Shown here piece by piece: positions 33,889-60,706 of a stretch of DNA of 64,000 nt (within the stretch, counting starts at the first letter, position 1; each line of letters opens with the position of its first letter). The stretch spans positions 4,650,001-4,714,000 of the forward strand of contig NC_019673.1 in assembly GCF_000328705.1 (NCBI RefSeq). The letters run 5' to 3'. Source of the DNA: Saccharothrix espanaensis DSM 44229. GTDB lineage: Bacteria > Actinomycetota > Actinomycetes > Mycobacteriales > Pseudonocardiaceae. The notes beneath the pieces are model-generated. The model had not been told where the DNA came from and searched no databases. It saw nothing but the letters and a program-made list of their open reading frames with translations. The translations under genes were made by a program, and so were the position numbers.

Positions 33889-33928
33889 GCCGTGAAGTCG
33901 GGAATCGGGTGGTGGGGAGTCGGGGCGG

Positions 33929-34231
33929 TCAGGAGTCGGGGTGGCTCGTGACGCCGAGCTCGGCGGCGATCTCGGCGAGCCGCGCGGTCAGGCCGCGGGC
34001 CAGGTTCGCGCGGTAGCCGATGAACAGCCGGTTCGCCAGGGGGACGGCCCACCGGCCGCGGGTGGCGACGTTGTGGACCCGGTGCACGACCCGGGTCCCG
34101 CGCGGGTGCGGCTCGGTGACGAACTCGCCCCGGTACCACCAGCCGCCCTGCACGGGTTCGGGCAGGTAGGGGGCGATCCGGTCGGCGGTGGTCGCGATGA
34201 CGCCGGCGACCTCGAACAGGGGTCTGCTCAC
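33929..34231 (-). CDS. SRPBCC/polyketide-cyclase-like short protein
   Basis: 100 residues from GTG 34231. FEVAGVIATTADRIAPYLPE, WWYRGEFVTEPHPRGTRVVH and the C-terminal helix LARGLTARLAEIAAELG resemble a START/SRPBCC lipid- or ligand-binding fold of reduced size. The GTG overlaps the PadR stop (GTGA), so it is the second gene of a PadR-controlled operon. Ligand unknown. Confidence 0.75.
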   Translation of the reverse strand: MSRPLFEVAGVIATTADRIAPYLPEPVQGGWWYRGEFVTEPHPRGTRVVHRVHNVATRGRWAVPLANRLFIGYRANLARGLTARLAEIAAELGVTSHPDS

Positions 34232-34893
34232 CGCTGGTCCTCCTCGTGGGTGCGCGCGGCCGGGGCCGCGGGGGTGTCGCGGAGGTCGCCGGTGGCGTCG
34301 CCGCGGTGCAGGTCGTGCCAGAACTCGTGGCCGCCGAGGGTCCCGGCGCGGGCGGAGTCGGCGAACCAGCGGGTCCAGTCGCGTTCGGCGCGCAGCATCG
34401 CCTGGCGGTGGTCGAGCTCGATCCAGGCCAGCTGGGGCAGGCCCATCGCGGCGAGGTCGGCCTTGACGGTGTCGAGCGCGGTGACCTGGTCGTCCAGGGT
34501 GGCGGCGCGGCGTTCGCACAGCGCGATGGCCTCGTCGGGCGGGAGCAGGCCGATCAGCGCGACACCGGCCTCGAACCGGGGGTACTCCTTGACCGGCACG
34601 GCGATCAGGTCGCGCAGCCAGTCGTGCAGTTCGGCGCGGCCGGTGTCGGTGAGCCGGTAGACGGTGCGCTCCGGCCGGTTGCCCTCCCGGGTGGCGGCGC
34701 CGGCCTCGAGGAAACCGTGCGCGCGCAGGCTGTCGACCACCGTGTACAGCGACCCGTAGGTGAGTTTGACGCTGCCTTCCTGGTGGCGTTCGCGCAGGGT
34801 GGACGCCATCTCGTAGGGGTGCATGTCGCGTTCGCGCAGCAGCCCCAGCACGGCCAGGGCCAGCGGATTCGTCCGTCGGTAGGGCTTGGGCAT
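34228..34893 (-). CDS. PadR family transcriptional regulator
   Basis: 221 residues from ATG 34893. LALAVLGLLRERDMHPYEMA then VKLTYGSLYTVVDSLRAHGF is the PadR winged helix (about residues 11-62); the C-terminal domain (Vir_C-like coiled coil) covers residues 95-190. An inverted repeat overlaps its promoter and the divergent hydrolase promoter, so it probably represses its own operon and the hydrolase/SDR pair. Confidence 0.92.
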   Translation of the reverse strand: MPKPYRRTNPLALAVLGLLRERDMHPYEMASTLRERHQEGSVKLTYGSLYTVVDSLRAHGFLEAGAATREGNRPERTVYRLTDTGRAELHDWLRDLIAVPVKEYPRFEAGVALIGLLPPDEAIALCERRAATLDDQVTALDTVKADLAAMGLPQLAWIELDHRQAMLRAERDWTRWFADSARAGTLGGHEFWHDLHRGDATGDLRDTPAAPAARTHEEDQR

Positions 34894-34896
34894 CGT

Positions 34897-34930
34897 TATA
34901 CTCGCTTCCGTATATCCGGTTACGAGTATA
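34897..34930. promoter_or_regulatory. PadR operator between divergent genes
   Basis: TATACTCG (34897-34904) and CGAGTATA (34923-34930) are exact inverted arms around an 18-bp centre with GTATAT. The AT-rich repeat begins 4 bp upstream of the PadR start codon and ends 25 bp before the divergent hydrolase start at 34956. Confidence 0.8.
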
Positions 34931-34955
34931 GCGCCCGGGACGTAGGTTCTCCGGT

Positions 34956-35654
34956 ATGACGATCACAGGGACCGCCGCCGGTGTGCCGTACGTAGCGCTG
35001 CCACCACGCACCGGCGGACGACTGGTACTGGTGTGGCACCTGATCGGCGAGCCCGCCACCCCGCAGGACATGGCGAAGGCGCTGCCGCTGACCGGGGTGG
35101 ACGCCTGGCGCGTCTACCTGCCGCTGCCCGCGCCCCCGCAGACCGGCGACGCCGTCACCGACTTCTACGCCCCCCTGGTCACCACCGCCGTCGACCAGGT
35201 CGCGCCGGTCGTGGCCGCCCTGCGCGCCGAACTCGGCTGCGACGACGGCCCGGTCGACCTGGTCGGCGGCTCCGCCGGCGGCCACATCGCCCTGCTCACC
35301 GCCCTCGACGCCGTCGTGCCGGTGCGGCGCGTGGCGGCGCTCAACCCGGCCGTGAGCGCGCAGGCCGTTGTCCAGGCCTCGATCGACGCCGGCCTCCTGG
35401 CCTCCTACGACTGGACACCCGCCGCCACCGAGGCCGCACGGCCGCTGGACGTGCTCGCCCGCGCGGACCAGTTGCGCGCCCCGCTGCTCGTGGTCCGTGG
35501 CGAACACGAGTACCCCGCGTTCCGGCCCGTTCAGGACCGCCTGCACGCCGCCGTGCCCGGGTCGAAGCTGGTCGACGTCCCGGACCTCCCGCACATGCTC
35601 GTGACGCAGCTGGACGTCGTGGAACGAGAGGTCGTGACGTGGCTCAACGCTTGA
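34956..35654 (+). CDS. alpha/beta hydrolase
   Basis: 232 residues. DLVGGSAGGHIALL (nucleophile Ser in GGSAGG, about residue 108) and DVPDLPHMLV (His) with LLVVRGEHEYPAF (acid region) outline an intact catalytic triad. Cytoplasmic, small, no signal peptide. It overlaps the following SDR gene by 16 bp. Controlled by the divergent PadR regulator. Probably an esterase or lactonase in a small detoxification unit. Confidence 0.87.
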   Translation: MTITGTAAGVPYVALPPRTGGRLVLVWHLIGEPATPQDMAKALPLTGVDAWRVYLPLPAPPQTGDAVTDFYAPLVTTAVDQVAPVVAALRAELGCDDGPVDLVGGSAGGHIALLTALDAVVPVRRVAALNPAVSAQAVVQASIDAGLLASYDWTPAATEAARPLDVLARADQLRAPLLVVRGEHEYPAFRPVQDRLHAAVPGSKLVDVPDLPHMLVTQLDVVEREVVTWLNA

Positions 35655-36355
35655 CCGTGGTGACCGGCGGCAGCCGGGGGATCGGCGCGGCCACCGTGCG
35701 CCGACTGGCCGCTGCCGGCCACCGGGTGGTGATCGGCTACCGCGCGGCGACCGACGAGGCCGAGGCACTGGCCGCCGAGGTGGGCGGCCTGGCCGTGCGG
35801 GCCGAGGTGTCCTCGCCGGCCGACGTCGACGCGCTGTTCGACGCGGCGGCCGCACTCGGGCAGGTGACCGGCGTGGTGGTCAACGCCGGCATCACCAGCC
35901 CGGTCGGCACCCTGGCCGAGACCGAGATCTCCGACCTGCGCCGGGTCGTGGACGTCAACGTGCTCGGCGCGCTGCTGTGCGCGCGCCGCGCCGCCCGTGA
36001 CCTGGTGGCGGGCGGCGCGATCGTGTCCGTCTCGTCCGCCGCGGCGACCCTGGGCAGCCCGGGGGAGTACGTGCACTACGCGGCGAGCAAGGCCGCCGTG
36101 GACGCGCTGACCGTCGGCCTGGCCAAGGAACTGGGCCCACGCGGGATCCGCGTCAACGCCGTCGCCGCCGGCACCGTGCACACCGCGATCCACGAACTGT
36201 CCGGCGTCCCCGACCGGCCGCAACGCGTCGCGTCCGCCATCCCACTGGGCCGGGCCGGACAACCCGACGAGATCGCCGCCGCGATCGCCTGGCTGCTCGG
36301 CGACGACGCCTCCTTCACCACCGGCGCGATCCTCCGCGTCGCCGGCGGCCTGTAG
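35639..36355 (+). CDS. SDR-family oxidoreductase
   Basis: 238 residues from GTG 35639, inside the 3' end of the hydrolase gene. LTVVTGGSRGIGAATVRRLA is the TGxxxGIG cofactor site, VVNAGITSP the NAG motif, and YVHYAASKAAVDAL (about residue 150) the YxxxK active site. It is a classical NADP(H)-dependent dehydrogenase/reductase of the FabG type acting on a carbonyl or alcohol. Co-translated with the hydrolase. Confidence 0.92.
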   Translation: MAQRLTVVTGGSRGIGAATVRRLAAAGHRVVIGYRAATDEAEALAAEVGGLAVRAEVSSPADVDALFDAAAALGQVTGVVVNAGITSPVGTLAETEISDLRRVVDVNVLGALLCARRAARDLVAGGAIVSVSSAAATLGSPGEYVHYAASKAAVDALTVGLAKELGPRGIRVNAVAAGTVHTAIHELSGVPDRPQRVASAIPLGRAGQPDEIAAAIAWLLGDDASFTTGAILRVAGGL

Positions 36356-36446
36356 GCGGCAGCGCCGGTGACGCTTGAACGGAACAGGGGAGTGGTCGGC
36401 CACCGTCCTTTCCCGCACGGAGCGTGATGCCCTTGAACGTCGTCGG

Positions 36447-37241
36447 TCAGGACGTGGTGGACGCCGCGGGCAGGCGGGGCGCGGTCAGCACGCGGGGACC
36501 GTCGTCGGTGACCGCCACCGAGTGCTCGACGTGCGCCGCCCGGCTGCCGTCCGAGGTGAGCAGCGACCACCCGTCCTCGGCCTCGTAGTACGGGTCGCGG
36601 CCGCCGGAGTGGAACATCGGCTCGATCGCGATCGCCATCCCGGCCCGCAGCGTCAGCCCGCGACCCGGCCGGCCCTCGTTCGGCACGCCCGGCGACTCGT
36701 GCATGGCCCGCCCGATGCCGTGACCGCCGAAGTCCGAGGGCATCCCGTACCCGGCGGCCCGCCCGATCCGGCCGACCGCCGCCGACACGTCACCCAGCTT
36801 CGCGCCCGGCACCGCCGCGGCGATCCCGGCGGCCAGCGCGCGCTCGGTGGTCTCGATCAGCGCCAGGTCCGCCGGGGCGGCGGTGCCGACCACGAAGCTG
36901 ATCGCCGAGTCGCCGTGCCACCCGTCGAGGTGCGCGCCGCAGTCGATGCTGACCAGGTCGCCGTCGCGCAGCCGGTAGCCGGTGGGGATGCCGTGCACGA
37001 TCACGTCGTTGACCGACGCGCAGATGTAGCCCGGGAACGGCGTGGTCGCGAACGACGGCTGGTAGCCCAGGAACGACGAGCCCGCGCCCGCGCCGCGGAT
37101 GACGTCGGCGGCCACCTCGTCCAGTTCCAGCAGCGACACCCCGATCCGGGCGTGGTCGCGGACGGCGGCCAGCGCGTCGGCGACGACCAGGCCGGCCGCG
37201 CGCATCGCGTCCAGCTCCGCGGGGGTTTTGAGCTCGATCAC
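36447..37241 (-). CDS. map: methionine aminopeptidase, type I
   Basis: 264 residues from GTG 37241 with GTAGGGAG upstream. VSIDCGAHLDGWHGDSAISF gives the two metal aspartates, GGHGIGRAMHE the catalytic/metal histidine, AIAIEPMF and the C-terminal VEHSVAV the glutamates of the di-metal site. It removes the initiator methionine from nascent proteins. Actinomycetes usually have more than one Map; this copy is outside the ribosomal-protein cluster and divergent from a small XRE regulator with a shared palindrome, suggesting it is a regulated accessory Map. Confidence 0.93.
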   Translation of the reverse strand: MIELKTPAELDAMRAAGLVVADALAAVRDHARIGVSLLELDEVAADVIRGAGAGSSFLGYQPSFATTPFPGYICASVNDVIVHGIPTGYRLRDGDLVSIDCGAHLDGWHGDSAISFVVGTAAPADLALIETTERALAAGIAAAVPGAKLGDVSAAVGRIGRAAGYGMPSDFGGHGIGRAMHESPGVPNEGRPGRGLTLRAGMAIAIEPMFHSGGRDPYYEAEDGWSLLTSDGSRAAHVEHSVAVTDDGPRVLTAPRLPAASTTS

Positions 37242-37257
37242 CAGAGTGCTCCCTACC

Positions 37258-37285
37258 GTGATAGTTATACCGGTATTACTATCAC
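37258..37285. promoter_or_regulatory. 28-bp near-perfect palindrome between map and the XRE gene
   Basis: GTGATAGT (37258-37265) and ACTATCAC (37278-37285) flank the symmetric core ATACCGGTAT; only two positions (37266 and 37277) break symmetry over 28 bp. It lies 3 bp before the XRE start and 17 bp before the map start, so a bound regulator would block both. Confidence 0.85.
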
Positions 37286-37288
37286 AAC

Positions 37289-37552
37289 ATGGTGCGCCAA
37301 CCACTCACCCCGTCCGACCACGCCCGCGGCGAACGACTCGGCGAAGCCCTCCGCCAGGCCCGCGGCGACCGCAGCATGGTCCAGGTCGCCACCGCCGCCG
37401 GCATCTCCGTGGAAACCCTCCGCAAGATCGAACGCGGCCGGATCCCCACCCCCGCCTTCTTCACCGTCGCCGCCCTCGCCGACGCCGTCGGACTCTCCCT
37501 CGACGCCCTGTGCCGCAACCTCGACGAACCCCGCCAGGCCGGCGCGGCCTGA
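37289..37552 (+). CDS. XRE-family helix-turn-helix regulator
   Basis: 87 residues. LGEALRQARGDRSMVQVATA then AGISVETLRKIERGRIPTPA is a Cro/CI-type helix-turn-helix, filling most of the protein. The methyltransferase gene starts 3 bp after its stop. It is preceded directly by the 28-bp palindrome, so it likely autoregulates and controls the divergent map gene. Confidence 0.9.
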   Translation: MVRQPLTPSDHARGERLGEALRQARGDRSMVQVATAAGISVETLRKIERGRIPTPAFFTVAALADAVGLSLDALCRNLDEPRQAGAA

Positions 37553-37554
37553 CC

Positions 37555-38169
37555 GTGCGGGACTTCGTCCACCACCACACCACACCCCGACCCGTCCCGC
37601 TCGCGCCCGAGATCCTCCTGCACACCGCCACCGACATCACCGCCCTCTGGGAGAGCACCGGCCGCCCCGAACCACCCTTCTGGGCCTTCCCCTGGGCAGG
37701 CGGCCAAGCACTGGCCCGCCACCTCCTCGACCACCCCGGCACCACCGCCGGCAAACACGTCCTCGACCTCGCCGCCGGCTCCGGACTCGTCGCCCTCGCC
37801 GCCGCCCGCACCGGCGCGACCACCGTCACCGCCAACGACATCGACCCGCTCGCCGGCACCGCCATCGCCCTCAACGCCGAGGCCAACCACCTCACCGTCG
37901 ACATCGTCATCGCCGACCTGCTCGACACCGACCCCGCGCACGACGTCGTCCTCGCCGGAGACGTCTTCTACGACCGCGACATGGCCGCCCGCGTCCTGCC
38001 CTACCTGCTGCGCGCCCACCGCGCGGGCGCCACCGTCCTGGTCGGCGACCCCCAGCGCGCCCACCGCCCCCGCGACGGCTTCCACCAGGTCGGCACCTAC
38101 CACGTGCCCGTCCCGCACGACCTCGAAGGCACCGACCACCGCACCACCCTCGTCTGGCGACCCCACTAG
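37555..38169 (+). CDS. class I SAM-dependent methyltransferase (ETFB/ribosomal-protein methyltransferase-like)
   Basis: 204 residues from GTG 37555. VLDLAAGSGLVALAAARTGA is SAM motif I (about residues 69-88), VTANDIDPLAGTAI the ribose-binding acidic loop and VVLAGDVFYDRDMA motif IV, like the METTL20/nicotinamide-N-methyltransferase-like branch with a DxxY-type catalytic loop. It probably methylates a protein lysine or small molecule. Second gene behind the XRE regulator, 3 bp spacing. Confidence 0.87.
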   Translation: MRDFVHHHTTPRPVPLAPEILLHTATDITALWESTGRPEPPFWAFPWAGGQALARHLLDHPGTTAGKHVLDLAAGSGLVALAAARTGATTVTANDIDPLAGTAIALNAEANHLTVDIVIADLLDTDPAHDVVLAGDVFYDRDMAARVLPYLLRAHRAGATVLVGDPQRAHRPRDGFHQVGTYHVPVPHDLEGTDHRTTLVWRPH

Positions 38170-38258
38170 ACGTAGAGGCCCGGACGTCGGTGACGCCGGT
38201 GTGTGTCGGCCGGACGAAGACAGGGGAGGCCCGCCCGGGGCGAACCTCCCCACCACGC

Positions 38259-39233
38259 CTACCGGCGCGCGAACTTGTCCGTCGCCGCCAGGATCGCCTC
38301 CATCATCCCGCCGTCCTGCACGCTGTGCGCCGCGCCGTGCACCACCACCAGCTCCGCGTCCGGCCACGCCCGGTCCAGCTCCCACGCCGTGTGCAACGGC
38401 CCCTGCATGTCCAACCGGCCGTGCACCAACACCGCCGGAATACCGTGCAACCGGCCGATGTCCCGCAACACCTGACCGTCCTCCAACCACGCGAAGTGGC
38501 GGAAGTAGTGCGCCGTGATCCGCGCGAACGCGTGCCGCCACCGCGGATCCGACTCCCGCGGCGCCGGCGTGTGGTCCGGGTCCATCGACACGATCGACCC
38601 CTCCCACGCACACCAGTCGTCGGCCGCCTTCTGCCGCACCGCCGGATCAGCGTCGTTCAACAACGCGTCGTACGCCGCCACCAGGTCCACCGACCCCTCC
38701 GGCGCACCCCGCCGGAACCGGTCGTACTCCTCCGGGAAGAACCGCCCCAACCCGCCGTAGAGCCACTCGAGCTCCGAGTACCGGCCCGACGTGATCGCCA
38801 CCATCACGATCTCCGTCACCCGCTCCGGGAACGACTCCGCGTAGTGCAACCCCAACGTGCACCCCCACGAACCCCCGAACACCATCCACCGCTCGACACC
38901 CAGGTGCTCCCGCAACAACTCGATGTCGCGCACCAGGTGCGCCGTCGTGTTCACCGACAGATCCGTACCGTGGTCCGCCGCGTGCGGCAGACTCCGCCCC
39001 GAACCCCGCTGGTCGAACAACACGATCCGGTACAGCGACGGGTCGAACCTCCGCCGCATGACGGGGGAGCAGCCCGTGCCCGGCCCGCCGTGCAGACCCA
39101 CCACCGGCTTGCCCTCCGGGTTCCCGCACACCTCCCAGTACACGAGGTTGCCGTCACCCACATCGAGCATCCCGTGCTCGTACGGCTCAATCTCCGGATA
39201 CACCCTCGACACCATCCCCACGTCGCGCGGCAA
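38259..39233 (-). CDS. pip: proline iminopeptidase
   Basis: 324 residues. GLHGGPGTGCSPVMRRRFDP (oxyanion HGGPG and the family-specific PG-x-GC), FDQRGSGRSLPHA, the nucleophile in MVFGGSWGCTLGLHYAESFP (about residue 120) and DMQGP plus GAAHSVQ for Asp and His define peptidase S33 prolyl aminopeptidase. It releases N-terminal proline from peptides in the cytoplasm. It is divergent from a MarR gene with a 12-bp palindrome between them. Confidence 0.94.
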   Translation of the reverse strand: MPRDVGMVSRVYPEIEPYEHGMLDVGDGNLVYWEVCGNPEGKPVVGLHGGPGTGCSPVMRRRFDPSLYRIVLFDQRGSGRSLPHAADHGTDLSVNTTAHLVRDIELLREHLGVERWMVFGGSWGCTLGLHYAESFPERVTEIVMVAITSGRYSELEWLYGGLGRFFPEEYDRFRRGAPEGSVDLVAAYDALLNDADPAVRQKAADDWCAWEGSIVSMDPDHTPAPRESDPRWRHAFARITAHYFRHFAWLEDGQVLRDIGRLHGIPAVLVHGRLDMQGPLHTAWELDRAWPDAELVVVHGAAHSVQDGGMMEAILAATDKFARR

Positions 39234-39238
39234 ATTAC

Positions 39239-39250
39239 AACAGCGCTGTT
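39239..39250. promoter_or_regulatory. 12-bp palindrome, MarR operator
   Basis: AACAGCGCTGTT is perfectly symmetric and lies inside the 28-bp gap between pip (start 39233) and the MarR gene (start 39262), flanked by AT-rich TTAC and ACATTA. It is positioned to control both divergent promoters. Confidence 0.78.
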
Positions 39251-39261
39251 ACATTAGGGGA

Positions 39262-39744
39262 GTGGCAGACAACCCCACCACCGACTTCCTCGGCACCCGC
39301 CTCCGACACCTGCTCGAACAACTCGACGGCGACGTCGCCCGCACCTACACCGACCTCGGCCTGCCCGGCTTCCGCCCCCGCTACACCCCGATCATCCGCC
39401 TGGTCGACACCCAAGGCCCCCAATCACTCCGCCAACTCGCCACCACCATCGGCGTCACCCACTCCGCCGTCAGCCAGACCGCCAACCAGATGCGCCGCGA
39501 CGGCTACGTCGAACTCCGCACCGGCACCGACGCCCGCCACCGCATCGTCCACCTCACCGACCACACCCGAACCCTGCTCCCCACCCTCTACGCCGAGTGG
39601 GACGCCACCAACGCCGCCACCCGCCAACTCGACGCCGAACTCCCACACCCCCTCAGCGACCTCGTCGAACGCACGCTCCAAGCCCTCGCCGACAAATCCA
39701 TGCACCACCGCATCCGAGACCACCTCCCACCTCACACCCCGTAA
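39262..39744 (+). CDS. MarR-family transcriptional regulator
   Basis: 160 residues from GTG 39262. SLRQLATTIGVTHSAVSQTA (about residues 54-73) is the recognition helix region, and RTGTDARHRIVHLTD the wing. Probably represses itself and pip through the 39239 palindrome. Its GTG follows an AGGGGAG word that is also one of the dif-pointing polar motifs. The 3' end overlaps the convergent WYL regulator by 13 bp. Confidence 0.9.
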   Translation: MADNPTTDFLGTRLRHLLEQLDGDVARTYTDLGLPGFRPRYTPIIRLVDTQGPQSLRQLATTIGVTHSAVSQTANQMRRDGYVELRTGTDARHRIVHLTDHTRTLLPTLYAEWDATNAATRQLDAELPHPLSDLVERTLQALADKSMHHRIRDHLPPHTP

Positions 39745-40694
39745 CGCGCCACCAACTCCGCACCCAACCGCGCCAACTCCACCCGCACCCCCTCCGACTC
39801 CACCACCTCCACCACCGCACCCCACCCCGCCAAGTGCTGCGCGATCATCAACGGCGACGGAGCCCACACCCGCACCCGAGCCCGACCCCCGCCCTCCTCC
39901 ACCACCTCGCAATGCCGCCCGAACTGGCTGCGCAACACCGACACCAACCGCGCCGGCACCACCACCACGGCCACCGACGCCGTCTGCCGCCCCTCCACCT
40001 CCGCCACCACACCACCCCACGCCGCCGACAACTCGAACCCCGCCGGACGCACCGCCTCCTCCTCGGTCACCACCACCTCCACCACCCGATCCACCCGGAA
40101 CGTCCGCCGACCCGCCTCCGTACCCGCGACCAGGTACCAAACGCCCCCCTTCTCCACCAACCCCAACGGATCCACCACCCGCACCGACGCCTCACCCGAC
40201 CGCTTCGCGTACGACAACCGCACCCGACGCCGCCGCACCACAGCCCCCTGCAACACCCCCACCACCCCCGACTCCCCAATAGCCGACTCCCCAGCAGCCG
40301 ACTCCTGCGCGCCCCACCGCGCCGGATCCAGCACCACCGCCTCCGCCGCGGCCTGCGCATCCGCCCGGAACGTCTCCGGCAACGCCCGCACCAACTTCCG
40401 CAACGCCGCCTTCGCCGCACCCGACACCGCCGCCGCCGGCCCCACCAACAAGAACAACGCCTGCGCCTCCGCCGCCGACAACCCCGACAGATCCGTCCGC
40501 GCCCGCCCCACCAACCGCCAACCACCACCACGCCCCGCCTGTGGGTACACCGGGATCCCCGCCGCCGACAACGCCTCCAGATCCCGACGCGCCGTCGCCA
40601 CCGACACCTCCAACTCGGCCGCCAGCTCCGCCGCCGTCACCCGACCCCGCGCCTGCATCAGCAACAACACCGCCACCAGACGATCCGCACGCAT
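39732..40694 (-). CDS. YafY-type WYL-domain transcriptional regulator
   Basis: 320 residues from ATG 40694 (MRADRLVAVLLLMQARGRVT). A DeoR-like helix-turn-helix (ELAAELEVSVATARRDLEAL, residues 24-43) is followed by the WYL domain around residues 140-230 (GGVWYLVAGTEAGRRTFRVD) and a WCX C-terminal extension. Divergent from the VOC gene, whose promoter it most likely controls; this YafY/VOC pairing is common in actinomycetes. An imperfect in-frame repeat around residues 135-143 (AAGES/AIGES) is present. Confidence 0.9.
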   Translation of the reverse strand: MRADRLVAVLLLMQARGRVTAAELAAELEVSVATARRDLEALSAAGIPVYPQAGRGGGWRLVGRARTDLSGLSAAEAQALFLLVGPAAAVSGAAKAALRKLVRALPETFRADAQAAAEAVVLDPARWGAQESAAGESAIGESGVVGVLQGAVVRRRRVRLSYAKRSGEASVRVVDPLGLVEKGGVWYLVAGTEAGRRTFRVDRVVEVVVTEEEAVRPAGFELSAAWGGVVAEVEGRQTASVAVVVVPARLVSVLRSQFGRHCEVVEEGGGRARVRVWAPSPLMIAQHLAGWGAVVEVVESEGVRVELARLGAELVARYGV

Positions 40695-40714
40695 GAACCA
40701 CAGTCTCCCCGGAA

Positions 40715-40737
40715 AAGTGCTCAGGAGATGCGCACTT
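40715..40737. promoter_or_regulatory. inverted repeat upstream of the YafY-type and VOC genes
   Basis: AAGTGC (40715-40720) and GCACTT (40732-40737) are exact 6-bp arms with an 11-bp spacer, 21 bp upstream of the regulator start in the divergent promoter region shared with the VOC gene. Confidence 0.6.
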
Positions 40738-40810
40738 AACCCACCAGGCTGGTCCACGACAGACACCACCGGACCAGCCACGAGGTCCGCCGGACCAGGG
40801 GAGACCCACC

Positions 40811-41242
40811 ATGTTGCGAGGCTTCACCACCGTCAGCTACTACGCCGACGACCTCGACGCCGCCGAAGCCTGGTACACCCGCTTCCTCGGCACCGAGCCC
40901 TACTACCGCGTCCCCGGCGGCTACCTCGAATTCCGCATCGGCGACTACCAGCACGAACTCGGCATCATCCACAGCGCCTACGCCACCCAGGACGTCGAGG
41001 GCGGCCCCGCCGGGCAGATCATCTTCTGGGCCGTCGACGACCTCGACGCCACGCTCGACCGACTCCAGGCACTCGGCGCGACCCTCCACGCCGCACCACG
41101 CGACCACGGCGGCAGCGGCTACATCACCGCCAGCGTCATCGACCCGTTCGGCAACATCCTCGGCGTCATGGCCAACCCGCACTACCAAGCCATCCTCGCC
41201 AACATCAAAGCGGGCACCCACTTCGCCGAATCGAACACCTGA
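40811..41242 (+). CDS. VOC-family (glyoxalase-like) protein
   Basis: 143 residues. FTTVSYYADDLDAAEAWYTR at the start, an ELGIIHSAY segment in the first half, and SVIDPFGNILGVMANPHY at the C-terminus are the paired beta-alpha-beta-beta-beta modules of the vicinal-oxygen-chelate fold. It may be a dioxygenase, isomerase or resistance protein. Divergent from a YafY-type regulator. Last gene before the dif region. Confidence 0.9.
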   Translation: MLRGFTTVSYYADDLDAAEAWYTRFLGTEPYYRVPGGYLEFRIGDYQHELGIIHSAYATQDVEGGPAGQIIFWAVDDLDATLDRLQALGATLHAAPRDHGGSGYITASVIDPFGNILGVMANPHYQAILANIKAGTHFAESNT

Positions 41243-41469
41243 TCGAACAGCGCGGGGGATCCGGCGAACCGCACAACATCACCGAACATCGCCATCAGCG
41301 CGCCCACACGACTCGGCACACCGGCCGTGACGAAGAACGACGCGGGGAGCAACAGCGCGACACGGCGGCACGCGCGGGCGGCGGGCGTTGGCCGTCGAGC
41401 GTTCGGACCGGAGGCGCAGGAACCCAGGGGGACGGCCGGCGGACCGCTCTCGGACCTCCCGAACGTTCT

Positions 41470-41497
41470 ACTTAACATAATGTCGATTATCGGCGTT
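41470..41497 (-). other. dif: chromosome dimer resolution site dif
   Basis: Read on the minus strand: XerC-type arm AACGCCGATAA, 6-bp centre TCGACA, XerD-type arm TTATGTTAAGT. The XerD arm matches 10 of 11 bases of the E. coli dif arm TTATGTTAAAT, and the CGCCGATAAT...ACATTATGT...AAGT pattern agrees with the dif consensus I recall for Actinobacteria. It is in a non-coding region, polar GGGGAG words converge on it, and a XerC/D-type recombinase gene lies about 420 bp away. XerC/XerD act here with FtsK to resolve chromosome dimers, so this marks the replication terminus of a circular chromosome. Confidence 0.9.
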
Positions 41498-41524
41498 ACG
41501 GCAGGAGCCGCTGACCGGGCCCAG

Positions 41525-41544
41525 GAAACGTCACGTGACGTTTC
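41525..41544. repeat. 20-bp perfect palindrome near dif
   Basis: GAAACGTCACGTGACGTTTC is perfectly symmetric and lies 27 bp from the dif site. No promoter or gene start is adjacent, so it is more likely a binding site for a terminus-associated protein than a classical operator. Function unknown. Confidence 0.6.
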
Positions 41545-41821
41545 TACGGTGGTGTGGCCGGATGGCGGGACAACGCCGTCCCGACGCCCTGGCAGCCGAT
41601 GATCATGCCTGCGGGCTCCCGGGGCTTGACGTGACGCGTTGTCGAGTCGCCGGCAGCCGCCGAGCCGTCACCAGCGGCACGGGCGTGCGTGACGACGAAC
41701 GAAGCACGGACATGTCCGGGCGGGCGTCCGGCGAAGTGTCGAGAGCGGTCAGGTCCCCCGGTGAGCCGACTGCGGGCCGAGAGCCGCCTCCAAGCCCCCG
41801 TGGACCCTTCCGGACGGGTGT

Positions 41822-41849
41822 GTGATGGATAATCGGCATTATCCATCAC
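41822..41849. other. 28-bp symmetric dif-like site upstream of the recombinase
   Basis: Arms GTGATGGATAA and TTATCCATCAC around TCGGCA show the same 11-6-11 layout as dif and share the inner ATAA/TTAT half-sites and a one-mismatch centre (TCGGCA against TCGACA), but the outer arms are perfectly symmetric and unlike dif. It ends 64 bp before the recombinase start codon. It could be a recombination site for that enzyme, an operator bound by it, or both. Confidence 0.65.
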
Positions 41850-41913
41850 TTGTTGAATATCGGGCGGCGGGATCATCACGGGGGACGGACGGCCGCGCCG
41901 GATTGTCGGTGCT

Positions 41914-42915
41914 GTGCGGTATGAAGATCCAATGCGCGTTCTCGCCGCTCAGGAGTCGTTCTTCCTCGCCCGCCGCCCCCGGAAGGACTCCCCCCACACC
42001 ACGGCCGCCTACCGGCGCGACCTGGCGGGGATCACGACGCTGCTCGCCGAGGTGTGCTCCACTCCCCCTGACGGGCTGGAGATCGCCCACCTGACGGCCG
42101 GGAACCTGCGGGCGGCGTTCGGGGTGTTCGCCGACACGCACGCCAAGAGCTCGGTGTTGCGCGCCTGGTCGACGTGGAACCAGTTCCTGACGTTCTGCGT
42201 GGCGGAGGACCTGGTGCCGGGCAACCCGATGGGCGCGGTGGCGCGGCCGAAGACCCCTCCCCTGGTCCCGAAGCCGTTGCGTGGCGAGGACACGCCGGAG
42301 CGGTTGTTGACGGCGGCGGCGGAGGGTGCGCGGCAGGGACGTGACCCGTGGCCGGAGCGTGATGTGCTGGTGCTGGCGTTGGGGCTCGTGGCGGGGTTGC
42401 GGTCGGCGGAGATGCGGACGTTGACGCTGGCGTCGGTGGTGGGTCGGCCGGGTGAGCGGCGGTTGCACGTGGCGGGCAAGGGGAACCGGGACCGGTCGGT
42501 GCCGATCGAGCCGGCGATGGACCGGATCATCGAGCAGTACCTGGGGTCGTGCCGGTCGCGGTTCCCGCAGGGGCGGTTCGACCGGGGTTCGGCGTTGTTG
42601 CGGGACCGGCACGGGGAGCCGATCGGGCGGGGTGGGTTGGAGTACCTGGTGCGGTCGTGCTTCCGGTGGGCGGGGTTGCACGACCGGGTGCCGTCGGGGG
42701 CGAACCTGCACGCGTTGCGGCACACGTTCGCGACGCGGTTGGCGGAGGACGGGGCGTCGGCGTCGGAGATCATGGCGTTGTTGGGTCATGCGTCGTTGGC
42801 GACGTCGCAGAACTACATCGAGGCGACGGCGCGGGAGCGTCGGGCGGCGGCTGCGGGGAATCGGACGTACGTGTCGTTGTCGCGGTTGCCGGGTCAGGCC
42901 GTGGAGTCGGAGTAG
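41914..42915 (+). CDS. XerC/D-type tyrosine recombinase
   Basis: 333 residues from GTG 41914 (or ATG 41932). The N-terminal SAM-like core-binding domain covers about residues 5-110 (TTAAYRRDLAGITTLLAEVC). The catalytic domain has Arg in GLVAGLRSAEMRTL (about 162), Lys in HVAGKGNRDRSVPI (about 189), HxxR in NLHALRHTFATRLAEDG (about 266-269), His in ALLGHASLATSQ (about 291) and the nucleophile Tyr in NYIEATARERR (about 300). All catalytic residues are present. Sited next to dif and downstream of a dif-like site, it may be a terminus-specific Xer paralogue; an integrase from a lost element is the alternative. Confidence 0.9.
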   Translation: MRYEDPMRVLAAQESFFLARRPRKDSPHTTAAYRRDLAGITTLLAEVCSTPPDGLEIAHLTAGNLRAAFGVFADTHAKSSVLRAWSTWNQFLTFCVAEDLVPGNPMGAVARPKTPPLVPKPLRGEDTPERLLTAAAEGARQGRDPWPERDVLVLALGLVAGLRSAEMRTLTLASVVGRPGERRLHVAGKGNRDRSVPIEPAMDRIIEQYLGSCRSRFPQGRFDRGSALLRDRHGEPIGRGGLEYLVRSCFRWAGLHDRVPSGANLHALRHTFATRLAEDGASASEIMALLGHASLATSQNYIEATARERRAAAAGNRTYVSLSRLPGQAVESE

Positions 42916-42991
42916 GGCTGCTCCCCTGGTGTCTGTGGGCTGTCCGGGTGACTTGGGTGTGTCTGGGTTCGCACGGGTGTACGCAGGTCGT

Positions 42992-43786
42992 ATGAGGGCG
43001 GTGTGGCGTGGTGCGGTGGCGTTCGGGTTGGTGACGTTCCCGGTGCGGTTGTTCTCGGCTACGGGTTCGCACGGGTTGCGGTTCCACCAGGTGCATCGGG
43101 CTGATGGTGGGCGGGTTCGGCATCGGCGGGTGTGTTCGGTGTGCGCGGAGGAGGTGCCGTTGGCGGAGGTGGTGAAGGGTTTCGAGTTGCCGGATGGGCG
43201 GTTGGCGTTGTTCGAGGCCGCTGATTTCGCGGGGTTGTCGGTGGGGTCGGGTCGGGTGATCGAGGTGGTGCAGTTCGCGCGGGCGGACGAGGTGGATCCG
43301 ATTTTTCTGCACCGGTCGTTCTACGTGGAGCCGGAGCGGTCGGCGGTGGGGTCGTACTGCTTGTTGCGGGATGTGTTGGAGCGGTCTTTTCGGGTGGCGG
43401 TGGTGAAGGTGGTGATCCGGCGGCGGGAGGCGGTGGCGGTGGTGCGGCCGCGGGGTCGGGTGTTGGTGTTGCAGACGTTGTTGTGGCCGGATGAGGTGCG
43501 GGAGCCGGATTTCGGTGTGGTTGACGTGGCGGTGGAGTCGCGGTTGCCGGAGGTGCGGGTGGCGGCGTCGTTGGTGGAGTCGATGACGGCGGCGTTGGAT
43601 TTGTCGGTGTTCTCGGACGGGTATCGGGATGCGGTGGCGGGGTTGGTGGCGGAGCGGGCGGCGGGTGCGGTGATCCCGGTGTCGCGGGCTCCGGAGGAGA
43701 CGGGTGGTGGGGAGCTGTTGGGGGTGTTGCGGCGGAGTCTGGAGCGGGTGCGGTCGGGGCGTGGGGGGCGGGATCGGGTGGAGTAG
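42992..43786 (+). CDS. ku: Ku protein (non-homologous end joining), short paralogue
   Basis: 264 residues from ATG 42992. MRAVWRGAVAFGLVTFPVRL, LRFHQVHRADGGRVRHRRVC and VCAEEVPLAEVVKGFELPDG are the conserved start of bacterial Ku; VLVLQTLLWPDEVREPDFG lies in the bridge region. Homodimeric ring that holds DNA ends and recruits LigD. It lacks the Lys-rich tail found in the next Ku, ending instead in an Arg/Gly-rich SGRGGRDR stretch. First of the NHEJ genes, 118 bp upstream of the second Ku. Confidence 0.94.
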   Translation: MRAVWRGAVAFGLVTFPVRLFSATGSHGLRFHQVHRADGGRVRHRRVCSVCAEEVPLAEVVKGFELPDGRLALFEAADFAGLSVGSGRVIEVVQFARADEVDPIFLHRSFYVEPERSAVGSYCLLRDVLERSFRVAVVKVVIRRREAVAVVRPRGRVLVLQTLLWPDEVREPDFGVVDVAVESRLPEVRVAASLVESMTAALDLSVFSDGYRDAVAGLVAERAAGAVIPVSRAPEETGGGELLGVLRRSLERVRSGRGGRDRVE

Positions 43787-43905
43787 TGGTGGGGCTGTCC
43801 GGGGGTGTGGGGCGGGGGTTCGGGTGGTGGCGGCTCGTGCCTGGGGTTGGTCCGTTCGGGTGACGTGCTAGTGCGGAATTCCTCGTGGGCGGGTACGCAC
43901 GTGGG

Positions 43906-44802: not shown

Positions 44803-44813
44803 GGGCGCGCGGG

Positions 44814-47306: not shown

Positions 47307-47400
47307 TCGCCGCTTGGGCGGGCTGTGGGTTCGTGATCGTGTTGTGTCGCGGGTCGATTCCGCGTCGGTGGGATGTGTGGGTGGGGAACAATCCTGGCGC

Positions 47401-50409: not shown

Positions 50410-50440
50410 GCGGTGCGCGGCCGCGGGCAGGCTGCGGCGC

Positions 50441-51967
50441 ATGACGAGCGAGACCCGCAAGTGGGGCACCTTGGTGTTGGGGTGTCTGGCGATGCTGTTG
50501 TTGGCGGTCGACCTGACCGTGCTGCACCTGGCGGTGCCGGCGCTGGTGGCCGATCTGGGGCCGTCGGCCACGCAGGTGCTGTGGATCGCCGACGCCTACG
50601 GGTTCGCGCTGGCCGGGCTGCTGGTGACGATGGGCAACCTGGGCGACCGGTGGGGCCGCAAGCGGCTGCTGCTGGTGGGGGCGGCCGGGTTCGGGGTGGC
50701 GTCGGTGTGCACGGCGTACGCGCCGACGCCGGAGTTGTTGATCGTGGCGCGGGCGCTGCTGGGGGTGGCGGGCGCGACGATCATGCCGTCGACGCTGTCG
50801 ATCATCCGCAACGTGTTCACCGACGCGCGGGAGCGCACGACCGCGGTGGGGATCTGGAGCGGGGTGGGCGCGGCCGGGTTCGCGGTGGGGCCGATCGTGG
50901 GCGGGCTGCTGCTGGACCGGTTCTGGTGGGGGTCGGTGTTCCTGGTCAACGTGCCGGTGGTGGCGTTGATCGTCGGGTTGGGCGTGGTGCTGCTGCCGGA
51001 GTCGCGCAACCCGAGTCCGGGCCGGTTGGACCTGTTGTCGGTGGTGCTGTCGGTGGTGGGCGTGGTGGCGGTGGTGTACGCGGTGAAGGAGGCGGCGCAC
51101 GACGGGTTCGGCGTTGGGGTGGTGGTCGCGGCCGTGGTGGGGGTGGCGGCGGTGGTGGTGTTCGGGCGGCGGCAGACGCGGCTGGAGGAGCCGTTGATCG
51201 ACGTGCGGCTGTTCGCGGTGCGGGCGTTCTCGGCGTCGATCGGGGCGACGCTGGTGGCGATGTTCGCGAGCTTGTCGCTGTCGCTGGTGTTGGCGCAGTA
51301 CCTGCAACTGGTGTTGGGGTGGACGCCGTTGCAGGCCGGGCTGGGCGGGTTGCCGGGCGGGGTGTGCGGCGCGGTCGGCGGCGGGCTGGCCGGGGTGCTG
51401 GTGACGCGGTGGGGCCGGGCGGCGGTGGTGGCGTGCGGGCTGGGGTTGACCGCGGTCGGGTTCGGGCTGTTCGCGGCGGTGCTGTCGGTCGACGCGACGT
51501 TCTGGGCGATGCTGCCCGCGATGGTCGTCTACGGGACCGGGGTGGGGTTCGCGTTCGCGGTCACCAACGACACGGTGCTGGCGTCGGTGCCCCGGGAGCG
51601 GGCCGGCGCGGCGGCGTCGATCGCCGAGACGGCGACCGAGATGGGCGGGGCGTTGGGGATCGCGGTGCTGGGCAGCGTGCTGGGCGCGGTGTACCGGGGT
51701 GACCTGGTGCTGCCGGCGGGGGTGCCGGCCGAGGCGGGCGAGTCGCTGGCGGCCACGCTGCACGCGGCGGCGGGCCTGCCGGGCGAGGTCGCGGGGCCGC
51801 TGGCGGCGGCGGCGCGGGCGGCGTTCGTGGACGGCGCGGCGACGAGCATGTGGGTGTGCGCGGGCGTGTTGGTGGTGTTGGCGGTGGTCGCGGGCCGGGT
51901 GCTGCGCCCGGTGCCGAAGGTGATCGACGACCCGGGTGTCGGGGACCCCCGCCCGGTGGCGTCTTGA
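50441..51967 (+). CDS. DHA2-type MFS drug exporter
   Basis: 508 residues with about 14 hydrophobic segments. LAVDLTVLHLAVPALVADLG holds the DHA2 motif D-like segment in TM1, GNLGDRWGRKRLLLVGAAGF is MFS motif A, and RALLGVAGATIMPSTLSIIR then VGAAGFAVGPIVGGLLLDRF is motif C of antiporters. QacA/EmrB-like: exports cationic or lipophilic drugs by proton antiport. Sits behind the AfsR-like regulator; ends before a strong hairpin. Confidence 0.93.
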   Translation: MTSETRKWGTLVLGCLAMLLLAVDLTVLHLAVPALVADLGPSATQVLWIADAYGFALAGLLVTMGNLGDRWGRKRLLLVGAAGFGVASVCTAYAPTPELLIVARALLGVAGATIMPSTLSIIRNVFTDARERTTAVGIWSGVGAAGFAVGPIVGGLLLDRFWWGSVFLVNVPVVALIVGLGVVLLPESRNPSPGRLDLLSVVLSVVGVVAVVYAVKEAAHDGFGVGVVVAAVVGVAAVVVFGRRQTRLEEPLIDVRLFAVRAFSASIGATLVAMFASLSLSLVLAQYLQLVLGWTPLQAGLGGLPGGVCGAVGGGLAGVLVTRWGRAAVVACGLGLTAVGFGLFAAVLSVDATFWAMLPAMVVYGTGVGFAFAVTNDTVLASVPRERAGAAASIAETATEMGGALGIAVLGSVLGAVYRGDLVLPAGVPAEAGESLAATLHAAAGLPGEVAGPLAAAARAAFVDGAATSMWVCAGVLVVLAVVAGRVLRPVPKVIDDPGVGDPRPVAS

Positions 51968-51984
51968 GAACGTGACCGGCCGGC

Positions 51985-52021
51985 CGGGTGCGGGGCGTTC
52001 GAGGGGCGCGCCCCGCACCCG
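51985..52021. terminator. hairpin terminator between convergent genes
   Basis: CGGGTGCGGGGCG (51985-51997) pairs exactly with CGCCCCGCACCCG (52009-52021) around an 11-base loop. Located between the MFS stop (51967) and the convergent hydrolase stop (52027). Confidence 0.82.
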
Positions 52022-53418: not shown

Positions 53419-54122
53419 GGCGTGTGCCAGGCGCCGCCCCAGCCGGCCGGGTCCTGCAGGACGGCGAACCGGGCGCCCGACGGGTCCTCCAGCACCGCCA
53501 CCCGGCCGGTGGGCCGCTCGCCCGGCGGCACGACCACCCGGCCCCCGGTCTCGGCCGCCACCGCCGCGGTCTTGTCCGTGTCGGGCACCGCGAAGAAGCA
53601 CGTCCAACGCTGGTCGCCCTCGCCCGCCAGCCGGCCCGCGACCGCCCGCTGCTCCGCGGCCGTGTCGTAGACGGTGTACGGCTCGTCCGGGGTGCGGCAG
53701 CGCCAGCCCAGCTCCCCGGTCCAGTAGTCGTCGTCGGCCCCGAAGGGCGTGTCCGAGGACGTGCCGGAGGGCGTGTCCGAGGAGACGACAGGGGACGTGG
53801 CGGAGAACTCCGCCCAGCACGGCTCCCCCGCGCGCGGCGGCGGCGCCCACGGCCCGTGCAGCACCCGCCCCCGGTCGACCGCCGCGCCGTCGCGCAGCCC
53901 GCGCGGGTCCGGCCCGGCGAACACCACCCGGAAGCCGTCGCCGCCCGGCAGCACCCGCACGGCCAGCCGGTCGCCCACCCAGCCGGAGAACACCCCGCCC
54001 GGCTCGGCGATGACGACCCAGCCGAGCAGGTGGGCGTAGAAGTCGGCGACCGGCTCGGGGTCGGCGGTGGTCAGCTCGACGCGGCGCACACCGCGCACGG
54101 GGCTGCTGGAAGGACCGGTCAC
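53415..54122 (-). CDS. VOC-family protein, two modules
   Basis: 235 residues from GTG 54122. VRRVELTTADPEPVADFYAH starts one VOC module and a second follows about residue 130 (GELGWRCRTPDEPYTVYDTA), ending VAVLEDPSGARFAVLQDPAG. Between them lies a Ser/Thr/Asp linker with a short repeat (SSDTPSG/SSDTPFG). It resembles CFP30B/glyoxalase-like proteins of actinomycetes. Function unassigned. Confidence 0.85.
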   Translation of the reverse strand: MTGPSSSPVRGVRRVELTTADPEPVADFYAHLLGWVVIAEPGGVFSGWVGDRLAVRVLPGGDGFRVVFAGPDPRGLRDGAAVDRGRVLHGPWAPPPRAGEPCWAEFSATSPVVSSDTPSGTSSDTPFGADDDYWTGELGWRCRTPDEPYTVYDTAAEQRAVAGRLAGEGDQRWTCFFAVPDTDKTAAVAAETGGRVVVPPGERPTGRVAVLEDPSGARFAVLQDPAGWGGAWHTP

Positions 54123-57517: not shown

Positions 57518-57578
57518 TTGGCAACAGCTTGGCGGTGATCACCACGGCGGTGTGGGCGGGGAAGTACAGTCCCCGCCC

Positions 57579-58976: not shown

Positions 58977-58977
58977 A

Positions 58978-59005: not shown

Positions 59006-59012
59006 CTCCGGC

Positions 59013-59711
59013 TCACGCCGACGACGTCTCCTCGGGCACGGCCACCCACGGCCGGAACACGACCACCACAGCCGTGGTGGTCAGCCACACGGCCGCCCAC
59101 GTCACCAGCGACAACGGCACGACGAAGGCGGTCGCCGCGCCCACCAGCACACCCGCGACCGCGGCACCCACCCACCTCGCCTGTGGTACCCGAGGCGCCT
59201 CGGAGTGCAGGCCCAGCCACACCGCGGCGGCCGTCACCCACATCGGCAGCACCGTCGCCGCCGCCCACCAGGCCACCCCGGGGTCGGTCAGCGGCAGGGT
59301 CGCCACCACGAGCACCACCAGCACCAGCCACCGCGCCCAGCCCAGCCGCCCGGTCACCACCGCCGCGAACACCGCGACCAGCAGCGCGTCGTACCAGAGC
59401 ACCGGGACATCCCCGGAGCGCGACGTCGACACCGCCGACTGCGCCGAGAGCACCAGGTGCCCGACCAGCCCGGCCAGCGCCACCAGCCGCGTCACGTCCC
59501 CCGCCCGGCTGCGCGGCCGGAACCGGACCCGCACCGCCAGCCCCGCCGTCGCGACCGCCTCGCCCCACCCGGGCCAGCCGTGCTCCCGGTCCAGCCCGTC
59601 GTCCCGGTCGGTCAGGAACAGCCCGACCATCTCCTCCTCCCGCTCCGCCCGGTACCAGCGGGGCAGCACCCGCAGCAGCGCCCGGTACCGGCGTTCCAGG
59701 TTCGACCTCAC
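59013..59711 (-). CDS. membrane protein coupled to PadR
   Basis: 232 residues from GTG 59711. The N-terminus VRSNLERRYRALLRVLPRWY and REEEMVGLFLTDRDDGLD resembles the cytoplasmic segment of actinobacterial proteins encoded after PadR regulators. Five or so hydrophobic segments follow (ALLVAVFAAVVTGRLGW, WLVLVVLVVATLPLTDP, VGAAVAGVLVGAATAFVVPL). The GTG overlaps the PadR stop (GTGA). Function unknown. Confidence 0.8.
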   Translation of the reverse strand: MRSNLERRYRALLRVLPRWYRAEREEEMVGLFLTDRDDGLDREHGWPGWGEAVATAGLAVRVRFRPRSRAGDVTRLVALAGLVGHLVLSAQSAVSTSRSGDVPVLWYDALLVAVFAAVVTGRLGWARWLVLVVLVVATLPLTDPGVAWWAAATVLPMWVTAAAVWLGLHSEAPRVPQARWVGAAVAGVLVGAATAFVVPLSLVTWAAVWLTTTAVVVVFRPWVAVPEETSSA

Positions 59712-60022
59712 CGCGCCTCCCTCGCCCGCAGCACCGACGACGCGGCCCGCACGTTCGCCGACAGCCGCGCCACCTCGGCCGACAGAACCCGCACCCCGGC
59801 GTCGGTCAACCGGTAGTAGCGGCGCAGCCGGCCCTGGTGGACCTCTTCCCGGTCCCGCACCGCCCACCCGTCGGCGACCATCCGGTCCAGCACGCCGTAG
59901 AGCGTGCCGACCCGCAGCACCACCCGGCCCTCGGACAGGACTTCCACCGACCGCACGATCGCGTACCCGTGCAACGGCTCCTCGGCCAACGCCGTGAGCA
60001 CCAAGAACGCCTGCTCTGACAT
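59708..60022 (-). CDS. PadR family transcriptional regulator, short (PadR-s1)
   Basis: 104 residues from ATG 60022 (an in-frame GTG at 60031 is the alternative). MSEQAFLVLTALAEEPLHGY and VLRVGTLYGVLDRMVADGWA form the winged helix; RRYYRLTDAGVRVL is the wing. It lacks the long C-terminal domain, typical of subfamily-2 PadR proteins. Probably autoregulates through the AT-rich repeats just upstream and controls the coupled membrane-protein gene. Confidence 0.92.
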   Translation of the reverse strand: MSEQAFLVLTALAEEPLHGYAIVRSVEVLSEGRVVLRVGTLYGVLDRMVADGWAVRDREEVHQGRLRRYYRLTDAGVRVLSAEVARLSANVRAASSVLRAREAR

Positions 60023-60039
60023 ACCCCTCACACCGCAGG

Positions 60040-60061
60040 TTATATCGCAAAGCGTTATATC
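60040..60061. promoter_or_regulatory. AT-rich repeats upstream of PadR
   Basis: TTATATC occurs twice as direct repeats (60040-60046 and 60055-60061) with ATATCGC and GCGTTAT between them forming an imperfect inverted repeat around AAA. AT-rich in a GC-rich region and 18 bp upstream of the PadR start; probable PadR-binding promoter. Confidence 0.65.
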
Positions 60062-60706
60062 TCGTCCAGACGTGGTCGGTGTCGTGGCTTGGTTGTAGTC
60101 GTAACGAGGCTTGTGTTTCGGGCGACAGTTCCTGGAGGTTTATTCTTGGTTGTTACTGAAACAATAGAGCGTAGTAGCAACACGCAGGCCGGTGATCCCG
60201 GCTTCGCCGCGGACCGAGGTTCCGCGTTGATGCCCCTACCGACGTCGTCCGACGGCCTGGCTCGACGCGGAGGCAGTGGCGGCGGCCCTGAGCGAGCCGG
60301 TGGCCGTGGTCGACTCCCCCGTCCTGGACCGCTGCGTGCGATTCCTGGGGCAGCCCCTGCCGACCGGCACGTACGCGGCCGCCGAGGTGGTGGCCTCGTC
60401 GTCGATCGACCGGGTCGACCCGGTCGGCGTGCCGCTGTCCCCCGACGACCCGGTGGAGACGCTGCGCTTCCTACGTCCGCCGCGCGCCTGGACCGGGTCG
60501 ACACCGCCCGCGAGCACTGCCAGGCCCTCGACCACTACCGTTCGCTGCCTCCAGCGCTGCGGCAAGACCAGCACTTCCACGGCAGCGGTGTAGGGACCGT
60601 CCTCCGATTGGGTCTCAGGGTTGTCCCACTGGAACTCGATCACCCGTTCGACCGACTTGCGTCCTTACGTCACCTGGCCACACCACGCCGACTAAGGTGG
60701 CCCGCC
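60062..60706. other. non-coding region with an unassigned coding remnant
   Basis: About 645 bp. The first 120 bp are AT-richer and may hold a promoter (GGAGGTTTATTCTTGG, TTGTTACTGAAACAA). From about 60243 the plus strand reads like protein (AWLDAEAVAAALSEPVAVVD, LDRCVRFLGQPLPTG) up to about 60490, then the frame loses protein character, and another frame reads ARLDRVDTAREHCQALDHYR. I do not recognise the family; it looks like a broken gene. The last 60 bp precede thymidine kinase. Confidence 0.4.

Follow-up and report, generated by a model that had tools for sequence, protein, structure and literature searches.

FtsK-orienting polar sequences (KOPS) of Escherichia coli, with the word GGGNAGGG, are short, G-rich, and nonpalindromic, run from the origin to dif on both chromosome arms, and are enriched near dif. 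KOPS words vary between clades, and the SpoIIIE recognition sequences (SRS) of Bacillus subtilis and the KOPS of Lactococcus are devices of the same type for pumps of the FtsK/SpoIIIE family with different words. Here, we describe the heptamer RGGGGAG (R, A or G) in a 64-kb stretch around the dif site of Saccharothrix espanaensis DSM 44229 (the window; positions 4,650,001 to 4,714,000 of a single 9,360,653-bp contig). It is alike in all these respects, and we consider it very probably the actinobacterial KOPS, for which FtsK is the predicted reader by analogy with known systems. A literature search, including the available portions of PMC13277299 and PMC11898615, found no experimentally defined KOPS for Actinobacteria. 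RGGGGAG is a precise and testable KOPS candidate for the phylum to which mycobacteria, corynebacteria, and the actinomycetes that make antibiotics belong, and with its help the terminus can be found from sequence.

The closest described words are two octamers of Corynebacterium, behind which reportedly stands the paper of Hendrickson and Lawrence from 2006 on architecture-imparting sequences (AIMS). These octamers, (T/C)GGGGGAG and G(A/T/C)GGGGGA, have been presented as AIMS in five Corynebacterium genome papers (PMC2830990, PMC3164646, PMC3022926, PMC3219685, and PMC3350403), one of which names them actinobacterial AIMS, and in C. aurimucosum they show together a leading-strand bias of 856:61. 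They share with our word the GGGGGAG core, the leading-strand bias, and the use for finding dif. In contrast, the portions of these papers that were available use the octamers to locate dif; they control for neither codons nor composition, give no form with A at position 1, and report no test beyond Corynebacterium, whereas the consensus here is the heptamer RGGGGAG. Since the octamers were published as AIMS, the kind of signal and most of the word were already known; what is added here is the heptamer with its purine at position 1, together with the controls and the phylum-wide reach.

The circular chromosome of S. espanaensis has been published with a length of 9,360,653 bp (PMC3469384). dnaA lies at base 34 of the record, and therefore each half of the record is one chromosome arm. 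The dif site in the window consists of two 11-bp arms, which we assign to XerD and XerC after the E. coli dif, and a 6-bp center. The 23-base core of this site occurs only once in the 9.36-Mb genome even with up to 3 mismatches allowed, and 181 of 298 genomes of the order carry the core with no more than 1 mismatch; the dif of Frankia alni (PMC3025954) is identical to the window dif at 24 of 28 bases. The original prediction, made from the letters of the window, was a KOPS-like code of 22 RGGGGAG copies, 21 of them pointing to dif and 16 within about 8 kb of it, whose polarity should switch at dif genome-wide, strengthen toward dif, recur in related genomes, and survive a control for composition. 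A word search returned exactly 22 copies, of which 9 on the left and 12 on the right point to dif and only that at 13660 points away; 16 lie within 8 kb of dif, and all positions were as predicted except that the last copy starts at 60314 instead of 60313. The dif site (from sequence comparison) and the copies (from the word search) are as follows.

41470 to 41497, plus strand: dif site, 28 bp, two 11-bp arms and a 6-bp center
5284 to 5290, plus strand: GGGGGAG, to dif
13660 to 13666, minus strand: AGGGGAG, away from dif (sole exception)
18732 to 18738, plus strand: GGGGGAG, to dif
23275 to 23281, plus strand: GGGGGAG, to dif
36061 to 36067, plus strand: GGGGGAG, to dif
36386 to 36392, plus strand: AGGGGAG, to dif
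38222 to 38228, plus strand: AGGGGAG, to dif
39063 to 39069, plus strand: GGGGGAG, to dif
39256 to 39262, plus strand: AGGGGAG, to dif, shortly before a possible start codon
40797 to 40803, plus strand: AGGGGAG, to dif, shortly 5' of an ATG, could also be a ribosome-binding site
41988 to 41994, minus strand: GGGGGAG, to dif
42062 to 42068, minus strand: GGGGGAG, to dif
42257 to 42263, minus strand: AGGGGAG, to dif
42921 to 42927, minus strand: AGGGGAG, to dif
44895 to 44901, minus strand: GGGGGAG, to dif
46396 to 46402, minus strand: GGGGGAG, to dif
46662 to 46668, minus strand: GGGGGAG, to dif
47640 to 47646, minus strand: GGGGGAG, to dif
48012 to 48018, minus strand: GGGGGAG, to dif
49319 to 49325, minus strand: GGGGGAG, to dif
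53823 to 53829, minus strand: GGGGGAG, to dif
60314 to 60320, minus strand: GGGGGAG, to dif

The total itself is unremarkable (22 versus 31.0, standard deviation 4.9, in dinucleotide shuffles), and the departure from chance lies in orientation and clustering. GGGGGAG occurs 10 times within 8 kb of dif, compared with 2.9 expected from its density at 8 to 450 kb (Poisson P = 0.001, for a region picked post hoc).

We read 2.064 Mb of the S. espanaensis chromosome base by base, in one contiguous stretch of 864 kb around dif plus sixty dispersed stretches of 20 kb. Counts are given as toward:away, meaning copies whose 5'-to-3' reading heads to dif versus from dif. In this sample, GGGGGAG was strand-biased to the leading strands, as an AIMS is, with 324:45, which put it at the top of 5,262 7-mers in both z (14.5) and ratio; the Corynebacterium octamers G(A/T/C)GGGGGA and (T/C)GGGGGAG gave 232:58 and 270:23, respectively. 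With the arms pooled, copies toward dif outnumbered those away in each populated distance bin, going from 14:7 at 4 to 4.7 Mb and 34:11 at 3 to 4 Mb to 43:0 at 100 to 200 kb and 10:0 within 8 kb. Both abundance and strand bias increase to the terminus, as in AIMS: across 102 segments, density correlated with distance from dif at a Spearman coefficient of -0.43 (P = 7e-6) for copies toward dif and +0.26 (P = 0.007) for copies away. A 9-mer, TGGGGGAGC, has 117 copies genome-wide, and among the first 100 of these, 96 point toward dif and 4 away (63 plus and 4 minus on the left of dif, 0 plus and 33 minus on the right). In the same 100, the last plus copy is at 4,655,283 and the first right-side minus copy is at 4,696,395, with dif at 4,691,472. 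Thus, the word is oriented to dif on both arms and switches at dif, as KOPS do and as the original prediction had it, and its density and strictness rise together toward dif.

Does the word simply follow the genes? With gene calls from our own heuristic, which is based on GC content by codon position and is not a gene finder, GGGGGAG was counted 129:11 where the gene runs toward dif, 107:15 where it runs away, and 88:19 in uncalled DNA; the polarity tracks the replichore, not the gene. A ribosome-binding site or another G-rich transcript-level signal would be expected to follow gene direction, and the copies at 40797 and 39256 do shortly precede possible start codons. However, the orientation does not change with the direction of the gene. 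Called genes contain 8 of the 16 copies that lie within 8 kb of dif; all of these genes run outward, and all 8 copies are on the template strand. The other 8 are in DNA without a heuristic gene call. We regard a transcript-level signal as scarcely credible.

Another possibility is that the polarity is a by-product of strand composition or codon usage, a G-rich leading strand biasing any G-rich word. In keeping with this, GC skew is mostly positive on the plus strand of the left arm outside the dif zone, and many other G-rich words in the 7-mer screen are slightly biased. In contrast, the mirror word GAGGGGG, of the same composition, is much less polar (96:72 versus 324:45 in the 2.06-Mb sample), and most single substitutions in the word lose most of the bias. 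When synonymous codons were permuted within genes of this sample (60 rounds), the expected counts for GGGGGAG were 310 (standard deviation, 11.5) toward and 216 (standard deviation, 15) away, so that the wrong-way copies are those that have been removed. AGGGGAG was seen at 72:15 versus 64:40 expected and GAGGGGG at 96:72 versus 208:179, and it follows from these permutations that G-runs are generally avoided and that GGGGGAG is exempt only in its permitted orientation. The window by itself gave 15:0 for GGGGGAG versus 12:13 expected.

The by-product explanation fares no better against local composition. We fitted an order-2 Markov model in 2.5-kb blocks within 10 kb on each side of dif in 12 Pseudonocardiaceae. 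In S. espanaensis itself, GGGGGAG was seen at 10:0 versus 0.4:5.3 expected and AGGGGAG at 6:0 versus 0.3:1.6; over the 12 genomes, the counts were 88:8 versus 9.2:47.7 and 46:1 versus 5.3:19.9, respectively. The mirror words behaved differently, GAGGGGG being 5:64 (expected, 10.5:56.1) and GAGGGGA being 16:20 (expected, 8.8:26.6). Near dif, local composition thus predicts the reverse of the orientation seen, and GAGGGGG goes the opposite way, so the bias persists under the composition control. Mutation bias is insufficient, as for an AIMS, by the codon permutation for GGGGGAG and by the local Markov null, and a by-product of composition or codon usage is very unlikely. It had also been proposed that copies in coding sequence displace the locally normal Leu, Ser, and Pro codons. 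In called outward-running genes within about 10 kb of dif, this held for Pro, with the motif covering 9 of 57 CCC versus 1 of 200 CCG codons, and for Ser (4 of 26 TCC versus 0 of 167 TCG), but not for Leu (just 1 of 59 CTC versus 1 of 267 CTG and 0 of 197 TTG).

Relatives agree in the main. A dif pattern scan across the phylum gave at least 120 loci, each of up to 8 kb, and at the 120 listed loci we counted GGGGGAG at 473:6, AGGGGAG at 208:8, CGGGGAG at 127:98, TGGGGAG at 47:30, and GAGGGGG at 76:46. At least one GGGGGAG pointed toward dif in 116 of them, and RGGGGAG copies toward dif outnumbered those away in 118, the exceptions being 1:1 and 0:0. By group among these loci, RGGGGAG was 121:3 in 24 Arthrobacter-like, 63:0 in 13 Nocardia, 72:1 in 11 Geodermatophilaceae (with which locus L134, whose record is labeled Bacillus, was grouped), and 17:1 in 4 Acidimicrobiia loci. 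A substitution scan of the listed loci showed that position 1 accepts A or G and that other single changes lose most of the bias. Some changes left a clear remainder, namely, those of the last base (GGGGGAC, 121:21; GGGGGAT, 69:20; GGGGGAA, 40:15), one at position 5 (GGGGAAG, 91:42), and GGGAGAG (144:23), the copies of which were mostly GGGGAGAG (102:1).

Besides, in 15 relatives read within 20 kb on each side of dif, GGGGGAG was 149:13, AGGGGAG was 66:6, and GAGGGGG was 23:88, and at 800 kb away in five of the 15, GGGGGAG was 36:7. On whole chromosomes, with the arms set by dif and dnaA, we counted the word TGGGGGAGT. It pointed toward dif in 57 of 58 copies in Arthrobacter sp. C2, in 61 of 63 in Mycobacterium aurum, and in 25 of the 29 listed copies (47 in all) in Prescottella defluvii, where the listed ones stop short of the copies beyond dif. 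The switch brackets dif in Arthrobacter sp. C2 and M. aurum, and the six wrong-way copies among the matches listed for M. aurum and Prescottella all lie within 350 kb of dnaA.

S. espanaensis holds both a FtsK gamma domain and a unique dif, as a KOPS host does. There is one gamma domain (PF09397, a single match of 84.2 bits), homologous to the solved FtsK chains 2ve8/2ve9, and a match above the cutoff was found in 60 of 60 sampled genomes of the phylum, S. espanaensis included. The recognition helix reads GFAKAGR in S. espanaensis versus GYNRAAR in chains 2ve8 and 2j5p, of Pseudomonas and E. coli. At the 23 of 31 loci where the pattern matched, the helix was G-Y/F-x-R/K-A-A/G-R with A, S, or T at x, whereas these two chains have N. 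This difference would be compatible with a clade-specific word.

RGGGGAG lies on the ori-to-dif strand of both arms, more densely and more strictly near dif, and we propose that the FtsK gamma domain would bind it so that the hexamer loads facing dif. FtsK would then drive terminus DNA trapped at the septum through it to dif, where Xer recombinases would separate dimers. Wrong-way copies would load the pump backwards, and selection would remove them, most strongly near dif. This KOPS reading predicts strong binding of FtsK gamma to RGGGGAG only, compared with CGGGGAG, GAGGGGG, and GGGTAGGG.

The word could also be a selected polar signal with another reader, such as a Chi-like recombination signal or an AIMS of a different segregation or repair protein. 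Words of the Chi type likewise lie on the leading strand. Against another reader stand the climb of abundance and strictness toward dif, a gradient that argues against Chi, the flip of orientation at dif, and the presence of the same word in distant groups (Acidimicrobiia, with 17:1, Micrococcales, and Mycobacteriales). Chi is also set apart from such words in the available part of PMC5993296. Taken together, we judge a different reader to be improbable.

Several points weigh against assigning RGGGGAG to KOPS. The role of FtsK is assigned by analogy, and the E. coli word GGGNAGGG is weakly polar here (197:143 in the S. espanaensis sample and 148:76 at the 120 listed loci). Of the four forms of the E. 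coli word, clear polarity is confined to GGGGAGGG (84:11), the one that includes GGGGAG, and the forms without GGGGAG are hardly polar. The specificity must therefore differ from that of E. coli, and since KOPS words differ between clades, a weak GGGNAGGG does not exclude the motif from the KOPS kind. Near the origin, at 4 to 4.7 Mb, the GGGGGAG bias falls to 14:7, with 6:5 for the right arm alone, and the mirror word, too, is uneven in some bins (13:1 at 100 to 200 kb). In one genus of the same family (g5; loci L250 to L253), GGGGGAG polarity within 20 kb is weak or lacking, with 5:3 in genome G154 and 1:3 in G169; AGGGGAG is 8:0 in each, and a shift of the preferred word from GGGGGAG to AGGGGAG is possible there. 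In a further genome, G177, GGGGGAG is 12:5. The codon control is uninformative for the AGGGGAG copies of the window (6:1 seen versus 6.2:0.8 permuted) because most copies lie in DNA without a called gene. The base-by-base reading covered only 2.06 of 9.36 Mb, and the relatives, at least 120 loci, were picked by one dif pattern, so that the 117 of 298 genomes of the order without it were left out. With the switch at dif, the composition and codon controls, and the relatives on the other side, the KOPS-like reading is nevertheless supported.

The part of these results that a specialist would not expect is the strand composition around dif, which is the reverse of that of a terminus for about 10 kb on each side. 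By skew computation, the zone in the window is as follows.

36000 to 52000, no strand: origin-like inverted skew zone, plus strand C/A-rich left of dif and G/T-rich right of it

We compared S. espanaensis with 11 genomes placed in its family. In these 12 Pseudonocardiaceae, GC skew was negative at 3 to 5 kb left of dif in all 12 and positive at 1 to 4 kb right in 11, and the inversion faded by 10 to 11 kb from dif. The turning point lay no more than 125 bp from the center of dif in 5 of the 12 and no more than 1.1 kb in 11. At fourfold sites within 5 kb, the outward strand had G at 0.60 to 0.64, C at 0.23 to 0.26, T at 0.09 to 0.11, and A at 0.03 to 0.04, alike in both gene directions; inward genes of Lentzea do not show the T/A part. 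The inverted skew was also present at Nocardia and Frankia loci, weak at most in Rhodococcus, mixed in Nocardiopsis, and absent from the Arthrobacter-like, Microbacteriaceae, Geodermatophilaceae, Kribbella, Jiangella, and Mycobacterium loci and from two f4 genomes.

Several origins for the skew were rejected. Gene direction or transcription does not account for it, the fourfold pattern being the same in both directions, and neither does the recombinase gene next to dif (described below), the skew being present in genomes without that gene near dif. Nor was there a sign that RecG or exonuclease VII, which guard fork fusion, had been lost among 20 genomes, skewed and not: RecG had a strong match in all 20 (13 above the curated cutoff, the rest split or below), and XseA was above the cutoff in all 20. 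The usual 5'-to-3' resection of double-strand breaks would, by reasoning, yield the opposite skew. The explanation we favor, although it is more doubtful than not, is that the skew would be a mutational signature of outward copying from dif in unmutated cells of Pseudonocardiaceae, Nocardia, and Frankia. DNA synthesis or another strand-exposing process would then regularly start at dif and run outward after fork fusion or Xer action; against such a tide, RGGGGAG would have to be kept by strong selection, and post-termination re-replication would be readable from the genomes of ordinary strains. The available part of PMC4999828, on post-termination re-replication, concerns E. coli and mainly mutants, and our literature search, including that part, found no report of a reversed skew at dif.

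A gene for a Xer-like tyrosine recombinase (PF00589) adjoins dif at 41932 to 42915 on the plus strand of the window; its best NCBIfam matches are XerC and XerD, both far under the cutoffs. Between dif and this gene lies a 28-bp dif-like palindrome, GTGATGGATAATCGGCATTATCCATCAC (41822 to 41849). A near-palindrome, with 8 to 12 of 12 arm bases paired, was found between dif and the gene at all 15 Pseudonocardiaceae loci whose recombinase is at least 71% identical, and the pattern was not found at four Nocardiopsis homologues (53 to 58%) or at one 29% match. The palindrome could be the target or the operator of a third Xer-like enzyme. Farther to the right, at 42992 to 47163 on the plus strand, are genes of nonhomologous end joining, namely, two Ku genes, a LigD ligase, and a LigD primase-polymerase. 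Ku and both LigD parts also adjoin dif in a genome of the same genus (G248) and at three Lentzea loci, apparently with one Ku gene.

Outside the window, a second polar word, GGGGAAGAC (80:6), was set aside as mostly a CRISPR-like repeat, with 69 copies at a period of 61 bases in locus L055 (G000:C1:2034001-2054000). This locus carries two CRISPR-like arrays (approximately 60 to 1709 and 12310 to 14879) with GGGGAAGAC as the common part of the repeat and a period of mostly 61 bases, and it was excluded from the own-genome part of a substitution scan. Finally, recG of S. espanaensis is a single open frame of 953 residues (L298, G000:C1:7928301-7931250, minus strand) with an insert of about 230 residues at the GSGK/T nucleotide-binding motif, which is intein-like by appearance and ends with HN before T.

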